Assembly (NCBI GenBank): GCA_019695335.1
Contig: JAIBAF010000031.1
Location: 1 to 39,354, forward strand
Reading direction: 5' to 3'
Origin: a bacterium
GTDB taxonomy: Bacteria; CLD3; SB21
Length of the DNA: 39,354 nt
Part shown: positions 5,011 through 29,926 of the stretch, piece after piece
Position numbering within the stretch: position 1 is the first letter of the stretch
Layout: each line of letters begins with the position of its first letter
Notes under the pieces: generated by a model
Told to the model about the DNA's origin: nothing
What the model saw: the letters and a program-made list of their open reading frames with translations, nothing else
Databases searched by the model: none
Program-made: the position numbers and the translations under genes

Positions 5011-6180
5011 ATGAATAAAACCCCGGCGCTCCCATTGGATTTTATCGCGTTTCTTGAACGCCGGTTTATGATCGATCTTATGTCGCCTAAAACCAACGCT
5101 CTTAAGCCAGTCTCTCAAACGATTCGTCTTCTTTCAGAACAACTCAGCCGGCCTAAATTCAGAAAAGATTTTACTAACAGCGTCTACCTTAATCAACCTG
5201 CTTTTCGCCAGGCGTACCTGTTATATTTTTCCTCATGTAATCTCCTGAAAATTCATTTTCCTTTGGATGAAATTTCACATTCCGGTTTTTTTGAAAATAA
5301 AAAAAACATTAAAATTCTCGACCTTGGAACAGGTACCGGAACATTGGTTTACGGCAGCGCATTTTGGTTTCAGCAATATCACCCACACACACAAATTGAT
5401 TTTACTGCTATCGATCAATCGGCCGAATCATTAAAAGAATTTGAAACCGATTTTCGTTCGTTTAAGTTTCCTCATACGCTTCGCTGCCAAACGTACGACC
5501 TTGAAAGAATATTGAATATTGAAGAACGTTACGACCTTATTATTGGTGCAAATTTTTTGAATGAACTGTCCGATGAAGGGCGTGAAAATGTTCTGTCAAA
5601 TTTGCAGAAACATTTGGCGTATGACGGTTTTGTCATTCTGATCGAACCTGCCTTATTAGAGACATCTCGGGTACTATTAAATTTTCGTGATCGTGCCGTC
5701 GAGAAGTCATGGTCAGTGTACGCACCGTGTTTTACAAAAAAAATGTGTCCGGCACTGCAGAACGACAACGATTGGTGTCATCACGACTGGACGTGGGAAA
5801 GACCGGCATTCATCGAAGTGATAGATGAGTTGATCGGCAATATCAAAAAGTCGCTGAAATTTTCGTATGTTGTGTTAACGCAAACAGACCGGCATTTGTC
5901 CGATTTTTTGAATGGGCGTGACTATGAAAATCAATTCCGTGTCGTGAGTGAATTATTTAAAGAAAAAGGCCGGAAGAGAATTTTTTTGTGCAACGATCTT
6001 GGGAGGAAGGAATTTGTCAAAAATAACCGGGACGATTCTGAAAGTAATTCAGCCTTCGATCAATTGGAGCGGTATGATTTGGTGCAGATCAGGCCGTTTG
6101 AAATTCGAAAGAGTGATGTGAAAATTTTAGAAAAGTCAGAAGTGTTGAAAATGTCTTCAATAAAATTAAAAACCGATTGA
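5011..6180 (+). CDS. Rsm22/METTL17-like SAM-dependent methyltransferase with four-Cys motif
   Basis: Predicted ribosomal small-subunit methyltransferase-like protein of 389 residues from the ATG at 5011. A TTG at 4972, overlapping the serS stop, would give 402 residues but has no better signal. The Rossmann SAM-binding motif is ILDLGTGTGTL, followed by an acidic motif II (FTAIDQS) and GANFLNELSDEGRENV. The distinctive part is the cysteine array Cys240-x5-Cys246-x9-Cys256 (the third within DWCHHDW) with a fourth Cys327 in IFLCNDLG. This matches the Rsm22/METTL17 family, in which four cysteines bind an iron-sulfur cluster. Family members act on ribosome assembly, and in mitochondria their methyltransferase activity itself is in doubt. 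Adjacency to serS fits a translation role. It converges with the response regulator, one base between stop codons. Confidence 0.8.
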   Translation: MNKTPALPLDFIAFLERRFMIDLMSPKTNALKPVSQTIRLLSEQLSRPKFRKDFTNSVYLNQPAFRQAYLLYFSSCNLLKIHFPLDEISHSGFFENKKNIKILDLGTGTGTLVYGSAFWFQQYHPHTQIDFTAIDQSAESLKEFETDFRSFKFPHTLRCQTYDLERILNIEERYDLIIGANFLNELSDEGRENVLSNLQKHLAYDGFVILIEPALLETSRVLLNFRDRAVEKSWSVYAPCFTKKMCPALQNDNDWCHHDWTWERPAFIEVIDELIGNIKKSLKFSYVVLTQTDRHLSDFLNGRDYENQFRVVSELFKEKGRKRIFLCNDLGRKEFVKNNRDDSESNSAFDQLERYDLVQIRPFEIRKSDVKILEKSEVLKMSSIKLKTD

Positions 6181-9551: not shown

Positions 9552-10910
9552 ATGACGCGGAATTTGTTTCTAATTTTAATTTTTTCCTTTTTTTTCATTT
9601 CCTGCTCCGACTCAGGTGATTGGATTACCAATCGTTCTGTGGGCGGCGATCCTGCAAAGGGGCTGGAATATTTGTATTACGGCGATTACATCGCGGCGGG
9701 TACGCCTCTGAAAGTTTTAGGATTACCTGAACCTTCTGATGATGATACCGTTACTCTTAACGCCTTCAAAAAAAGCATCGGACTGACTCAAAATGTTTTT
9801 CGTGACGCGAACGGCGTGTGGGTCGTCAGCGGTAGTTGTTTTACCTGCCACGCAACCGTGCATGACGGAAAACTTGAAACCGGATTAGGAAATCCGTTTA
9901 CCGATTGGTCACAAAAGAACACTACTAACTTTGAAGAAAAACGCGCAAAGATCGCAGAATTTCTCAGTGAATCGAGCCTGGAGTATAAATCTTTTATCGA
10001 ATCGTGGCGTTATCAAAAGGCGTTTGCATCGAAAATAGTCACCCAATGTGCCGGCCCTAATCCGGCATTTCGCATCGAAGAAGCCGCTGCTGCACACCGA
10101 AATGCGGATTTGACCTATAACGAAAACCCGGTATTTTCAATTAATGACACCCTTCCCGTGCCCGTTTCGGACATTCCGCCGCTGTGGAATGTGAAAAAGA
10201 AAAAACGTTTATACTATAATGGCCAAGGTACAGGAGATTTTCGAAAGCTGTTGATGCAGGCAGGAATGATCGGCATTCGCGATACCGTCGAGGCGAAAAA
10301 AATCTGGCAGAAATTTGCCGATGTTGCGGCATGGATCGAATCGCTCAAACCTCCAAAATGGCCATATACCATCGATCAGGAATTGGCGGAAATCGGTAAA
10401 GATTATTTCGAGCGCGAGTGCCGTAAATGCCACGGCAGTTACGGATGGGATGGCGAATACCCGAATAAGATCATTCCGCTGAAACGTGTCGAAACCGATC
10501 CGTACTACGCCGAATATTGGAAAACGATATCTGATTTCCCCAAGTGGTTCAATCAAAGCTGGTTTGGTCAAGGCGAGCCGGCGGCGAAATTGATACCCGA
10601 AGAAGGTTATGTCGCGCCGCCGCTGGACGGTGTATGGGCATCGGCTCCGTACTTTCACAATGGTTCAGTGCCGAATCTCGCGGCTGTGCTGAATAGTTCG
10701 TTACGCCCAAAATTATGGGAGCTCGATCGAAAAAAGCCACAATATGACTCGACAAATATTGGCTGGATCTATAAAAAAGTTGACGAATCGCACGGATCAT
10801 CGACGTATGATACCCGCCGCCGGGGTTATTCCAATCACGGCCACACATTCGGTGACGGACTTTCGGAAGAAGAACGAAAAGCCATTATCGAATACCTCAA
10901 AACACTTTAA
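9552..10910 (+). CDS. RoxA-like di-haem c-type cytochrome lipoprotein
   Basis: Exported haem protein of 452 residues. The N-terminal 18 residues form a lipoprotein signal ending in FFISC. Two CxxCH haem-attachment motifs are visible: CFTCH starting at residue 96 and CRKCH starting at residue 290. A later stretch, PPLDGVWASAPYFHNGSVPN, is the conserved segment of the RoxA/RoxB and di-haem peroxidase-like superfamily. RoxA-type enzymes are haem-dependent dioxygenases that cleave polyisoprene; MauG and bacterial cytochrome c peroxidases are distant relatives. Substrate specificity cannot be read from the sequence. The start is supported by AAGAGGAA upstream. Being a lipoprotein, it is probably anchored to the outer or inner membrane facing the periplasm. 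The PagL-like gene follows after 72 nt. Confidence 0.82.
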   Translation: MTRNLFLILIFSFFFISCSDSGDWITNRSVGGDPAKGLEYLYYGDYIAAGTPLKVLGLPEPSDDDTVTLNAFKKSIGLTQNVFRDANGVWVVSGSCFTCHATVHDGKLETGLGNPFTDWSQKNTTNFEEKRAKIAEFLSESSLEYKSFIESWRYQKAFASKIVTQCAGPNPAFRIEEAAAAHRNADLTYNENPVFSINDTLPVPVSDIPPLWNVKKKKRLYYNGQGTGDFRKLLMQAGMIGIRDTVEAKKIWQKFADVAAWIESLKPPKWPYTIDQELAEIGKDYFERECRKCHGSYGWDGEYPNKIIPLKRVETDPYYAEYWKTISDFPKWFNQSWFGQGEPAAKLIPEEGYVAPPLDGVWASAPYFHNGSVPNLAAVLNSSLRPKLWELDRKKPQYDSTNIGWIYKKVDESHGSSTYDTRRRGYSNHGHTFGDGLSEEERKAIIEYLKTL

Positions 10911-10982: not shown

Positions 10983-11666
10983 ATGAAAAAAATTCTACTT
11001 TTTGTAATTCTGTTTACTGGAAATCAATTGTACGCACAATCATTCGCCTATGGCGACCATTGGTATGATAATCCGCTGGGGTTTAAGCCGATTGAACTAC
11101 ATACCCGGAATGGATTTCTTATTCCGGCTCTTGCGGTTGGTTTATGCGTCTGGCTGACACAGAAAGACACCACTTTGGATCGGCGCATCTCATTTTACAA
11201 TGAAACCGGCTGGTCACACGGCTACAAATATCCTCACACAAATCTGATTCAAAACAATTCAGGCATCGAAATACGGCTTCGAAAATGGATGTCAATTGGC
11301 ATCGATCTGGATGCTTATTTTCCTTACGATGATTTTAATTCCACAACGGGGGTTGGTATCAGATCTTTTGCAAGGTTTTACCCGGTAAACCAAAAACAAT
11401 GGCGTTTATTTTTTGACTCCGGAGCAGGTTTAATGTATTTCGCCGATTTCTTTCCTAAGCCAACGGATCGTGATGCACGGCTTGGGACCCATTGGAATGG
11501 GACGACGCGTTATGGAATTGGGTCTGAAATTGATTTTAGCCAGAGAATTGCGATCATTATTGCGATCCGTCACACACACGTATCGAATGGAAATAGCAAA
11601 GGCGCCGAGCGAAACCCATCGCATGACAGCAACGGTTTTTTCGTTGGAATGACTTATCGTCCGTAA
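10983..11666 (+). CDS. PagL-like outer-membrane lipid A deacylase (acyloxyacyl hydrolase family)
   Basis: Exported protein of 227 residues with a signal peptide (1-19, ending LYAQ) and alternating strands fitting an 8-stranded barrel. The C-terminal segment RHTHVSNGNSKGAERNPS matches the active-site strand of the PagL family, in which a His-x-Ser pair acts with an acidic residue to remove the 3-O acyl chain from lipid A. Here the pair is His199/Ser201. The acid is probably Asp215 at the aligned position, or possibly Glu209, so catalysis should not be assumed. The size is somewhat larger than classical PagL, with an extra N-terminal hydrophobic stretch near residues 45-60. Neighbours are also envelope proteins. 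Confidence 0.62.
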   Translation: MKKILLFVILFTGNQLYAQSFAYGDHWYDNPLGFKPIELHTRNGFLIPALAVGLCVWLTQKDTTLDRRISFYNETGWSHGYKYPHTNLIQNNSGIEIRLRKWMSIGIDLDAYFPYDDFNSTTGVGIRSFARFYPVNQKQWRLFFDSGAGLMYFADFFPKPTDRDARLGTHWNGTTRYGIGSEIDFSQRIAIIIAIRHTHVSNGNSKGAERNPSHDSNGFFVGMTYRP

Positions 11667-14051: not shown

Positions 14052-14714
14052 ATGGTTCAAATCGGCGACGCTGCTCCGAATTTAAAAATCTCAGAATGGG
14101 TTCAGGGACCGGAAACCAATCTCGATCAATTACGTGGAAAGGTTATTCTGGTTGAAGTTTTCCAGGTAAATTGTCCGGGTTGTTTCGTTTACGGATTGCC
14201 GGAAGCGATCGAAGTGTACGCCAAACATCATAAAGAAGGATTGGAAGCGATCGGGCTGGCGACCGCATTCGAAGATTTCGACAAAAACACTACAGATAAC
14301 CTGAAAAAACTGGTCAAGACAGGTGAAGTCATCGGTGAACCTTTGCGTATACTCCAAAACCGCGACTGGCTTGAAGGAAATCGATTACGTTATACTATTC
14401 CATTTCCGGTAGCGATGGACCATGTGATCGCGCACGACTCGGAACATGTCGATTCCAAAATCGCTCAAATTATCGAACACGAAATTCCTAATTTCGAACG
14501 TCTCAGTTACGGCGAACAAATGCGTGTACGTTTACGTATCCGCGATTATGTTTTGCATCAGGATTATGTTGCGGAGACGTTTGACATGTACAATCTGGGT
14601 GGAACGCCGTCGGCAATTTTGATTGACCGAAAAGGTTTTGTGCGGTATAAAATTTTTGGATCGGACGGCAAAATGGATAAGTATGTGCGAGAACTTTTGG
14701 CAGAACCGATATGA
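14052..14714 (+). CDS. Thioredoxin-fold redoxin (TlpA/peroxiredoxin-like)
   Basis: Cytosolic thioredoxin-fold protein of 220 residues with no signal peptide. The N-terminal region GDAAPNLKISEWVQG is redoxin-like, and the CPGC active site lies at Cys41 and Cys44, followed by a cis-Pro loop in GGTPSAILIDRKGFV near the C-terminus. An insert of about 90 residues between the active site and the cis-Pro strand contains helical, charged sequence and is larger than in ordinary TlpA proteins. The likely role is thiol-disulfide exchange or peroxide reduction with an unknown partner. It overlaps the 88-aa gene by four bases (ATGA), which points to translational coupling. Confidence 0.85.
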   Translation: MVQIGDAAPNLKISEWVQGPETNLDQLRGKVILVEVFQVNCPGCFVYGLPEAIEVYAKHHKEGLEAIGLATAFEDFDKNTTDNLKKLVKTGEVIGEPLRILQNRDWLEGNRLRYTIPFPVAMDHVIAHDSEHVDSKIAQIIEHEIPNFERLSYGEQMRVRLRIRDYVLHQDYVAETFDMYNLGGTPSAILIDRKGFVRYKIFGSDGKMDKYVRELLAEPI

Positions 14715-14977
14715 ATGATAAGTCCATACCTGCAGATGAAGTATTCGTCAATCTGATCCGCGTAGCCGGTGAAGATGAAAAAATCGGCAATTTTATCCGC
14801 GCCGTGATTGCGATGGACGGCTTTGGGCGTACATCGCTGATCAATTCGTTTATCCAGGAGATGGCGCTGAAAGGCGCTCCACAGGAATTCATAAAAGCTA
14901 TTGCCGCCTTGCGCGATCCTTTACTTATTGAGAAAATTCGGGAGTTATTATCCCATTCCGATTCAACTGCATTATAA
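14711..14977 (+). CDS. Small hypothetical protein, 88 aa, coupled to the redoxin gene
   Basis: I do not recognise this protein. It is 88 residues, predicted mostly alpha-helical and soluble, with no cysteine, signal peptide or membrane segment. Its start overlaps the redoxin stop as ATGA and its TAA is immediately followed by the TTG start of the amidase-deacetylase gene, so it is squeezed between two genes without spare bases. That arrangement supports it being translated. A small accessory or adaptor protein is possible, but nothing in the sequence names a function. Confidence 0.75.
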   Translation: MNDKSIPADEVFVNLIRVAGEDEKIGNFIRAVIAMDGFGRTSLINSFIQEMALKGAPQEFIKAIAALRDPLLIEKIRELLSHSDSTAL

Positions 14978-16579
14978 TTGAAAGTATACCTCTTGAAAGC
15001 ACCGGTATTTTTGATCATGATTCTGTGGACGGTTTCGGTTTTTTCACAGAACGATGGGAATAAAAACGGCCAGGCGCAAGCCGATACATTGCAGGATAGC
15101 TTGCGTACGGAATCGCTTGAAACACATGCCGGCCGTTTTGCAGAAATCATACGCCGTATTGCGTTGAAATTAAAAAGATATACGGAAACGACTCCTTCGC
15201 ACGTTCTGTACACCAATGAGAATTACGTCATCGTCATCGACCCGGGGCATGGCGGCGGCTGGTTGCAGGACAAAGGCTCCAGCGCGATTTTGGATGGCGA
15301 GACGTATTACGAACGCGACGTTATGTGGGATTACGGCGTTCTGCTGGAGAAAAAGTTAAAGGCACTCGGTTATCAAAATGTTTTTAAAACGAAAGAAGCC
15401 GTCGGGGATTCGACGATGTCGATCTTCGGGCGCATGAAAAGAATTCAAAATTTCGGGAAAGACAATAAAAAAGAAGTTATTTGCGTCAGCTTGCATTGGA
15501 ATAATTTCGAATATAAAGGTATTCGCGGAACTGAGATTTATATCGCCGAAAAAAGGAATTCGAAAAGCCGAAAATTAGCCGAATGTATTCAAGGCAGTAT
15601 GCGGCAAATTATGGATATTCACGGCAAAGGCTTTTACAGCCAGGGTATTGTTGAACGTGATTATAAATTGCTGCGTGAAAACCCGGTTGCCGTGCTTATC
15701 GAAATCGGATTTGCCAGCAACGAACAGGACATGCGGAAAATCGTATTCGAAAAAGATAATATTGCTGAAGCAATGGCTGAGGGCATTGATACGTACGCCG
15801 CATGGCTGGAAAAAAGCCATTTAAAACAATTGCAACCGGCGGCCGATTCGACTGTGCTTGCAGAAGTAGCCAAACTCAAATTACTCAATGGCAAATTGAC
15901 CGGATGGGGCTGGCGAAAATCGGATATTACCAAATCGATGGACAAAATGCTTGCGCAATATAATGCAATTTACGAAGATCCCCGTGCAGAAAAAAATCTC
16001 TATCTCACGTTTGATTGCGGTTATGAAAACGGTAACACGTCGACTATTCTTGATGTTTTGAAAACCAACGACGTGAAAGCGACTTTTTTTATTACCGGCT
16101 ATTATTTAAAAAACAATCATGAACTCGTCGCACGCATGCTCGATGAAGGGCATATTATCGGGAATCATTCCGCCAATCACCAGAGCCTGCCTAAACTGGA
16201 TTACGAATCAACCAAAGAAGAAGTGCTCGAACTTGAACGGATGTATTATGATCTTTTCGAGCAGAAGATGACGTACTTTCGTCCGCCAAGCGGCGAATAC
16301 AGCGAACGTTCGCTCGCGATCGTTTCATCGCTGGGTTACCGGACCGTATTCTGGAGTTTTGCATACGACGACTGGGATGCACACAATCTTCGGGGCAAAC
16401 AATTCGCCTATAATAAAATCATAAAAGGCATCCGAGACGGCGCGATCATGCTGTTGCATGCAACTTCCAAAGACAATGCGGATGCTCTCGATCAGGTTAT
16501 CCAGGATTTAAAAAAGCAAGGATACCAATTCAAATCCCTCGATGCGATCAATCATGCGTCGTCCGAGAGCAGCCCGTAG
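14978..16579 (+). CDS. Bifunctional N-acetylmuramoyl-L-alanine amidase (Amidase_3) / PdaA-type polysaccharide deacetylase
   Basis: Exported peptidoglycan enzyme of 533 residues with a signal peptide (about 1-24, ending VFSQ). Residues about 80-270 are an Amidase_3 domain: zinc ligands His91 (DPGHGG), Glu112 (YYERD) and His173 (SLHWNN), and catalytic Glu242 (LIEIGF). This domain removes the stem peptide from MurNAc. Residues about 310-525 are a NodB-type deacetylase most like PdaA: it has the PdaA-style GWGW entry segment, motif 1 TFDCGYENG (Asp346, with Cys347 where classical NodB has a second Asp and PdaA has Asn), zinc-binding His397/His401 (HSANH), RPPSGEYS, and the late LLHA histidine His494. 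CwlD plus PdaA make muramic delta-lactam in Bacillus. The TTG start directly abuts the previous stop; no later start keeps the signal peptide. Confidence 0.9.
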   Translation: MKVYLLKAPVFLIMILWTVSVFSQNDGNKNGQAQADTLQDSLRTESLETHAGRFAEIIRRIALKLKRYTETTPSHVLYTNENYVIVIDPGHGGGWLQDKGSSAILDGETYYERDVMWDYGVLLEKKLKALGYQNVFKTKEAVGDSTMSIFGRMKRIQNFGKDNKKEVICVSLHWNNFEYKGIRGTEIYIAEKRNSKSRKLAECIQGSMRQIMDIHGKGFYSQGIVERDYKLLRENPVAVLIEIGFASNEQDMRKIVFEKDNIAEAMAEGIDTYAAWLEKSHLKQLQPAADSTVLAEVAKLKLLNGKLTGWGWRKSDITKSMDKMLAQYNAIYEDPRAEKNLYLTFDCGYENGNTSTILDVLKTNDVKATFFITGYYLKNNHELVARMLDEGHIIGNHSANHQSLPKLDYESTKEEVLELERMYYDLFEQKMTYFRPPSGEYSERSLAIVSSLGYRTVFWSFAYDDWDAHNLRGKQFAYNKIIKGIRDGAIMLLHATSKDNADALDQVIQDLKKQGYQFKSLDAINHASSESSP

Positions 16580-28187: not shown

Positions 28188-29129
28188 ATGGCGTACGTGA
28201 AAAACGATAAAACTAAAATGGCCAAAACTGTTCAGGCAAAAGCGAAGGGAGCACAGGTAGAAAGATCCTTTCAGGATCGTTTCGTTGAAAATGTTAAGTC
28301 GATTGCATGGGCGTTATGCGTATTTTATTTTGTCCAGACTTTTTTCCTGCAGGCTTTTTCGATTCCGACTAGTTCTATGGAAAAGACCTTACTCGTCGGG
28401 GATTTTCTTTTTGTCAACAAATTCGTGTACGGTGCACAGACTCCTGAAAACATACCCTTCACAAGTATCGAATTGCCGCGTTATCGTTTTCCTGCCTTTA
28501 AAGACCCAAAACAAGGCGATGTAGTTGTATTTCGCTTTCCACATCCAGAATTAATGCGCAGCCAGCTAGGCCTCGATTATATCAAACGATGCGTTGCAGT
28601 TGCAGGACAAACATTGGAAGTTAAAAATAAAGAACTTTTTGTCGACGGCGTTAAATTTTCCGATCAGTTCAATCTACCGGGTGTTCATTTCGATCTGCAA
28701 TCGCAGTCGGAAGGATACGTTTTCCCGCGTGCTATGGGAACGGGCGACAATTTCGGTCCGTTCAGGGTGCCGGCTGAAGGTGACGTCATCAATATCCGCG
28801 CCGATATGATCGATTTGATCCAATACCTGGCATTACGCGACGGTAAAAAATTTGAACGGCGTTCGGACGGATATTATGTGGATGGAGCCAAAACGGATCA
28901 TTATGTAGTGCGACAAAATTATTATTTCATGATGGGCGACAATCGCGATAACAGCCTCGATAGCCGTTATTGGGGGCCGGTTCCACGCGACCATATCATG
29001 GGTGAAGGCTTGCTCATTTATTGGTCCAATGTTGAAGCGGCGAAGCAAACGTCGTACGTGATGAAACTTTTTTCAACATTGAATCTCACAAAAGTTAACT
29101 GGCGCCGTATCGGTACCGTTATACATTAA
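28188..29129 (+). CDS. lepB: Signal peptidase I (first of two tandem copies)
   Basis: Inner-membrane serine peptidase of 313 residues that cleaves signal peptides on the periplasmic side. One transmembrane helix lies at about 36-56, followed by the catalytic box SIPTSSMEKTLLVGD with the nucleophile Ser63 and the general base Lys133 in YIKRCVAVAGQ. The C-terminal GDNRDNSLDSRYWGPVP motif is intact. About 60 extra residues separate the Lys box from the GDNRDNS motif compared with the next gene, including a VHFDLQSQSEG segment. The N-terminal cytosolic part is basic. It lies 13 nt after coaD and 11 nt before the second signal peptidase. Confidence 0.96.
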   Translation: MAYVKNDKTKMAKTVQAKAKGAQVERSFQDRFVENVKSIAWALCVFYFVQTFFLQAFSIPTSSMEKTLLVGDFLFVNKFVYGAQTPENIPFTSIELPRYRFPAFKDPKQGDVVVFRFPHPELMRSQLGLDYIKRCVAVAGQTLEVKNKELFVDGVKFSDQFNLPGVHFDLQSQSEGYVFPRAMGTGDNFGPFRVPAEGDVINIRADMIDLIQYLALRDGKKFERRSDGYYVDGAKTDHYVVRQNYYFMMGDNRDNSLDSRYWGPVPRDHIMGEGLLIYWSNVEAAKQTSYVMKLFSTLNLTKVNWRRIGTVIH

Positions 29130-29140
29130 GAAGTTATTGC

Positions 29141-29926
29141 ATGGAAGATGCACAGAAAGCGGTTGCGCTTAATCAGGAGTTGGCCATTAATTCCTCCGAG
29201 CAAAATATCAGCCCGTCAGAGGTGGGAGCGAATTCTAAATCCAGAAAAAAAGAAAAAAGCACAACGTACGAACTTTTTCAAATTCTGATTTACGCCCTGC
29301 TGTTTGCCTACATCGTCCGGACGTTTTTTATACAAGGATTCAAAATTCCAACCGGCTCAATGGAAGATACGTTGCTGGTGGGCGATTTCCTATTGGTCAA
29401 TAAATTTATTTATGGCGCTACAACGCCGGAGACGCTTCCTTTGACGGATATTGAAATTCCGCAATGGCGGCTTCCGGCAATTCGCGATCCCAAGCCCGGC
29501 GACGTGATTGTATTTAAATTTCCTCCCGATCCCACGGTGGATTACATCAAACGATGTGTCGGCGTGGCGGGTCAAACCGTTGAAATCAGGGACAAGGCCG
29601 TATTGGTTGACGGGCATCCGTTCTCTGAAGTTATCCAACCGGAAGGATTAAAATTCGAAGATCCGGAAATCATTCCTCGCAATAAAGGTTATGAGTCGAT
29701 GTATCCCAAAGACGCAGGGAGCCGCGATAATTATGGACCCGTTACTATTCCTGACGGTTATGTTTTTGTCTTAGGCGATAATCGCGATCGAAGTTACGAC
29801 AGCCGGCAATGGGGATTTGTCCCGCGTGAAAATATTATCGGAAAAGCATTGTTTGTTTTTTGGTCGAACGCATCCGATAATAACCTCGATGTACGGTGGG
29901 ATCGTATTGGAAAGATGATTAATTGA
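29141..29926 (+). CDS. lepB: Signal peptidase I (second of two tandem copies)
   Basis: Second signal peptidase I, 261 residues, clearly paralogous to its neighbour. The transmembrane helix is at about 45-66, then KIPTGSMEDTLLVGD with Ser73, Lys137 in YIKRCVGVAGQ, and GDNRDRSYDSRQWGFVP near the C-terminus. All catalytic boxes are intact, so both copies should be active. The cytosolic N-terminus (1-42) is hydrophilic, Ser/Asn/Glu-rich and then basic, unlike that of the first copy. The insert of the first copy is absent. The tandem pair probably shares one transcript; division of labour between substrates is possible. Confidence 0.96.
   Translation: MEDAQKAVALNQELAINSSEQNISPSEVGANSKSRKKEKSTTYELFQILIYALLFAYIVRTFFIQGFKIPTGSMEDTLLVGDFLLVNKFIYGATTPETLPLTDIEIPQWRLPAIRDPKPGDVIVFKFPPDPTVDYIKRCVGVAGQTVEIRDKAVLVDGHPFSEVIQPEGLKFEDPEIIPRNKGYESMYPKDAGSRDNYGPVTIPDGYVFVLGDNRDRSYDSRQWGFVPRENIIGKALFVFWSNASDNNLDVRWDRIGKMIN

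Follow-up and report, generated by a model that had tools for sequence, protein, structure and literature searches.

The closest described route to muramic δ-lactam is that of the spore cortex, in which CwlD (7rag; TIGR02883), a germination-specific amidase, acts before PdaA, the spore-cortex MurNAc deacetylase/transamidase (TIGR02884; BsPdaA of Bacillus subtilis, 1w1a, 1w17 and 1ny1). CwlD followed by PdaA suffices for formation of the lactam in vitro, with PdaA accepting only peptide-free MurNAc and itself catalyzing the cyclization (PMC10116595). The same pair yields lactam in E. coli (PMC5855634), so a Gram-negative wall is a usable substrate. In BsPdaA, Asp73 is the base for deacetylation and is lost in the cyclase-only SwsB, Thr71 matters for deacetylation, and His222 is needed for cyclization (PMC12444981). 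Two further enzymes are known from Gram-negatives. MdaA of Agrobacterium is a stand-alone CE4 deacetylase of anhydro-MurNAc in which Cys replaces a metal-coordinating Asp (PMC10838918). SddA (YibQ) of E. coli, a separate protein of the divergent PF04748 family with a functional link to amidases, deacetylates septal strands bared by amidases, acting on GlcNAc (PMC11870482).

The gene described here lies in a stretch of 39,354 nucleotides (the window) and joins an Amidase_3 domain to a PdaA-type deacetylase domain in one chain. The open reading frame is intact from 14978 to 16579 (+ strand, 533 aa), as in the initial annotation, but translation more likely starts at the TTG at 14993, so that the preferred reading of the gene is 14993–16579 (+ strand, 528 aa) and the 14978 start is five codons longer. 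The later start is favored because a same-genus ortholog (89% identical) has no start codon at the equivalent of 14978 (TCG) and has GTG at the equivalent of 14993. In both sequences GAAAG, a putative ribosome-binding site located at 14980–14984 (+ strand) in the window, lies 8 nt upstream of the 14993-type start. The hydrophobic N-terminal segment, MKAPVFLIMILWTVSVFSQ (14993–15049, + strand), is a plausible signal peptide, putatively of the Sec type, by which the protein would be exported. An 88-aa ORF (14711–14977, + strand), kept in the same-genus ortholog, overlaps the stop codon of a redoxin gene (14052–14714) and abuts the fusion; co-transcription is possible. With these genes upstream and an aldo/keto reductase downstream, the immediate surroundings hold no peptidoglycan or sporulation context, and outside its own genus the neighbors of the fusion differ. 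Elsewhere in the window, two genes for signal peptidase I (S26) follow one another (28188–29129 and 29141–29926, + strand), and there is a gene for a PagL-like lipid A 3-O-deacylase, an outer-membrane protein (10983–11666, + strand), which is adjoined by that of a RoxA-like cytochrome c (9552–10910).

The fusion was found, as one copy per genome, in all seven genomes (four genera) of one family of a small candidate phylum, represented by nine genomes in the collection, and in neither of the two genomes of the sister family. Its relatives are deposited as MAGs of an uncultured 'bacterium' or 'Bacteroidetes bacterium'. A profile search of genome contigs with the full-length fusion alignment returned nothing beyond the known family, and a literature search found no Amidase_3–deacetylase fusion. 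Among 398 Bacillota genomes searched, 72 had PdaA-type matches, none of them fused; their frames of 261–391 aa are too short for an amidase–PdaA fusion.

The two domains are separated by a variable linker of about 37 residues (272–308; 15791–15901, + strand) with indels and lower conservation. Between two same-genus orthologs, dN/dS was 0.059 overall, with 0.026 in the amidase, 0.046 in the PdaA half and 0.175 in the linker (residues 276–313); the values for the two enzyme halves indicate that both are maintained by selection. Together with the seven orthologs, they rule out a chance ORF or an assembly artefact. Carriage by one family only might suggest a vestigial or mis-assembled fusion with no coordinated function, but this is extremely improbable, being already contradicted by conservation: seven separate assemblies from four genera have the same domain order and invariant catalytic residues, and the overall dN/dS is low.

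Neither Spo0A nor SleB/CwlJ-type hydrolases were found in any of the nine genomes of the phylum, host included; of three Bacillota genomes used for comparison, two gave Spo0A and all three gave Hydrolase_2. LpxC is present in the host and in five of the seven fusion genomes, the two without it being an 85%-complete assembly and one of 310 contigs. On these markers the host is a non-sporulating LPS bacterium, in agreement with the initial annotation, which had called it a non-sporulating Gram-negative. An endospore cortex pathway is rejected for the nine genomes on the same absence of Spo0A and SleB/CwlJ.

The Amidase_3 domain spans residues 85–271 of P0001 (15230–15790, + strand; Pfam E = 1.9e-27), with Foldseek matches to CwlD (7rag), 4rn7 and 1jwq. 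Alignment of the seven orthologs and of 7rag and 4rn7 identified three zinc ligands by homology, His91 (GHGG; 15248–15250), Glu112 (15311–15313) and His173 (SLHWN; 15494–15496), and a catalytic Glu242 (LIEIG; 15701–15703), all on the + strand. These residues match the active sites of the solved amidases and are invariant in the seven orthologs. From its sequence, this half is an ordinary, if divergent, Amidase_3 domain with a complete set of His/Glu/His zinc ligands and catalytic Glu, and amidase activity is predicted. The initial annotation had likened it to CwlD, which was not supported. Although it has the Amidase_3 fold and the four catalytic residues in common with CwlD, as well as the place proposed for it in the pathway, the CwlD model TIGR02883 gave 71.2 bits against a cut-off of 221.55 (true CwlD proteins of three Bacillota genomes score 267–283 bits), and in the amidase tree CwlD sequences and fusions fall into two distinct groups, each forming one side of a branch. 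A CwlD ortholog is thereby ruled out, and the chain is to be read as PdaA joined to another Amidase_3 enzyme rather than as the two Bacillus partners fused; unlike CwlD, this amidase sits in one chain with its PdaA domain.

The C-terminal half has a Polysacc_deac_1 match at residues 335–457 (E = 1.2e-34), and its PdaA-type CE4 domain spans residues 309–524 (15902–16549, + strand). The PdaA equivalog model TIGR02884 matched residues 314–524 with 283.6 bits (E = 1.1e-84), 14 bits short of the cut-off of 298; of the 72 Bacillota genomes that match PdaA at E ≤ 1e-60, 31 likewise score below it. The other CE4 models gave 163.5 (PdaB), 117.8 (SwsB/YlxY, TIGR02873; cut-off 391.5), 108 (PgdA) and 100 bits (NodB). 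Across 386 domain-wide genomes, PdaA-grade matches (at least 260 bits) were confined to the seven fusion genomes, two small genomes and G334, a large genome with Spo0A; the next match had 159 bits, so that the fusions lie above a gap running from 260 to 159 bits. Among solved structures, the top matches were PdaA of B. subtilis (3.6e-60) and 2j13 of B. anthracis. Identity to BsPdaA is 46.9% over 209 residues, as compared with 51% between BsPdaA and another spore-type PdaA (L056).

In an IQ-TREE phylogeny of 41 CE4 domains, which did not include MdaA, the seven fusion halves fell in a PdaA clade (100/100) whose other members included three spore-type PdaA, two stand-alone PdaA of a small-genome lineage, a Monoglobus plasmid protein and a gut-phage protein. 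NodB, PdaB-like, Thermus, Streptomyces and Mycolicibacterium sequences lay outside the clade, as did a separate CE4 protein of the host. A second run with 31 more PdaA retained the clade (100/99) and placed the fusions in one clade of their own (100/100), the sister group of which was not settled. By profile score, identity and tree position the deacetylase half is classed as PdaA-type and not as a generic CE4 domain, as initially annotated, and CE4 profile scores and tree together rule out a chitooligosaccharide or PgdA-type deacetylase, with neither of which it groups. Another CE4 protein of the host (G000:C40:23493-24086; L002/L033) has TFDAC as motif 1, and this motif recurs in other genomes of the family.

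AlphaFold2 models were built from five sequences and were of low confidence (pLDDT 60.2 for the full chain and 53.3 for the PdaA half). Foldseek on the full model nevertheless placed PdaA structures first (1ny1, 1w17 and 2j13), followed by amidases including CwlD; with pLDDT this low, the ranking backs the fold assignment but no finer detail.

Alignment to BsPdaA located motif 1, TFDCGYENG, at 16007–16033 (Thr344, Asp346 and Cys347 corresponding to Thr71, the catalytic base Asp73 and Asn74), motif 2, HSANH, at 16166–16180 (His397 and His401, corresponding to the metal ligands His124 and His128), motif 3, RPP, at 16280–16288 (Arg435, corresponding to Arg163), and His494, the equivalent of the cyclase-essential His222 (PMC12444981), at 16457–16459, all on the + strand. 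The six BsPdaA residues Thr71, Asp73, His124, His128, Arg163 and His222 are all kept and are invariant in the seven orthologs, so that the catalytic sets of both halves are complete, as had been annotated. The HSxNH, LLH and DNADALD segments reported earlier are likewise present, whereas the GWGW entry segment is found here but reads GWSW in other genera. Motif 1 lacks the second Asp, again as annotated: the Asn74 position holds Cys in six of the seven orthologs, Asn in one (the same-genus ortholog) and Asp in none, where stand-alone PdaA have Asn or Glu. At the position of BsPdaA Arg166, all fusions have Ser. SwsB/YlxY, the monofunctional muramic-lactam cyclase, is a CE4 relative of PdaA from the same pathway but is without the catalytic Asp; because Asp346 is kept, the fusion should deacetylate. 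Membership of the SwsB type is rejected on this residue and on the TIGR02873 score.

Based on these comparisons, the fusion is probably an exported two-step peptidoglycan enzyme. The Amidase_3 half would remove the stem peptide from MurNAc, and the tethered PdaA-type half would remove the N-acetyl group from the peptide-free sugar and join the amine so released to the lactyl carboxylate; the wall of this non-sporulating Gram-negative would thereby contain muramic δ-lactam. In this arrangement the amidase would provide the PdaA half with peptide-free MurNAc, and PdaA is known to accept no other substrate. The steps are not equally secure. Deacetylation of the bared MurNAc is likely, whereas lactam closure, the weakest step, is somewhat favored from clade membership and His494; to our knowledge, no sequence determinant other than His222 separates cyclization from deacetylation. 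Several features count against the lactam reading, namely Cys for Asn74 in six of seven orthologs, Ser for Arg166 in all, a TIGR02884 score below cut-off, an amidase half that is not CwlD, poor AlphaFold models and the absence of SleB/CwlJ-type hydrolases, the known readers of muramic δ-lactam that were searched for. Relative to PdaA itself, then, the likeness lies in the clade, the 47% identity and the six residues, and the difference in the amidase partner, the non-sporulating LPS host, the two substitutions and the shortfall in bits.

The main rival to lactam formation is an amidase joined to a MurNAc deacetylase that does not cyclize. Bared strands would then carry free muramic acid as its product, or would end in deacetylated anhydro-MurNAc, which would either shield them from muramidases or lytic transglycosylases or control SPOR-type readers (cf. 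MdaA and SddA). The Cys at a motif-1 metal-ligand position (Cys347 in six of seven fusions) recalls MdaA, compared here by description only, which also acts on a MurNAc-type sugar in a Gram-negative (PMC10838918), and the Ser at the Arg166 position points the same way. Against this, the deacetylase domain lies inside the PdaA clade (in trees without MdaA), in the same-genus ortholog the Cys position is occupied by Asn, the very residue of BsPdaA, and the equivalents of Asp73 and Thr71 for deacetylation and of His222 for cyclization are all kept. With SddA there is a precedent for the deacetylation of amidase-bared strands in Gram-negatives (PMC11870482), but this enzyme is of another family and takes GlcNAc. 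A non-cyclizing enzyme is accordingly considered unlikely, although it deserves more weight than any other alternative. For the lactam-forming enzyme, a septal or turnover mark would be a reasonable first guess at a role, given that bared strands arise at the septum and that SddA deacetylates them there in E. coli. The initial annotation had suggested a mark of turnover or of resistance to lytic enzymes.

A secreted enzyme that degrades the walls of other bacteria or shed peptidoglycan, for nutrition, predation or competition, with deacetylation merely aiding digestion, would also account for the signal-like N terminus, and Amidase_3 domains are common in lysins. The Pfam search of the fusion, however, returned no wall-binding or secretion-system domain, no lytic-cassette genes were found among its neighbors, and it is kept as a single copy per genome across the family under strong purifying selection. 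Moreover, we know of no case in which PdaA-type modification aids lysis by non-cognate enzymes, and a wall-degrading role is regarded as improbable. 

Returning to the lactam reading, we give about even chances to its fullest form: a single-chain muramic δ-lactam synthase whose CE4 metal site contains Cys, which acts in the envelope of vegetative cells in a candidate phylum with LPS, and whose product is recognized by readers that are not SleB/CwlJ. Muramic δ-lactam, supposedly restricted to spores, may then also occur outside them. As a natural amidase–PdaA fusion in a non-sporulating Gram-negative, the protein reduces the lactam question to one gene, and it would serve as a one-chain reagent for the energy-free amide-bond formation of PdaA.

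PdaA-clade proteins were also seen in other settings. The stand-alone proteins L057, L058, L159 and L160 belong to a lineage with genomes of 1.2–1.4 Mb (G044, G189, G781 and G782); the two genomes tested, G044 and G189, are without Spo0A, SleB/CwlJ and LpxC, and on these two the lineage is a second non-spore setting for PdaA. A literature search found no report of PdaA in Coprothermobacter. A Monoglobus plasmid (NZ_OY725741.1, 202195–203460; L083) encodes a clade member with a long N-terminal extension. Although they share the clade, the proteins of the small-genome lineage and of Monoglobus differ from the fusions in being unfused and in having Glu in motif 1 where the fusions have Cys or Asn. 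On a gut phage contig (MT836426.1, about 5563–6108; L089), a further clade member has TFNEIL as motif 1, the catalytic Asp being replaced by Asn in a manner reminiscent of the cyclase-only SwsB.
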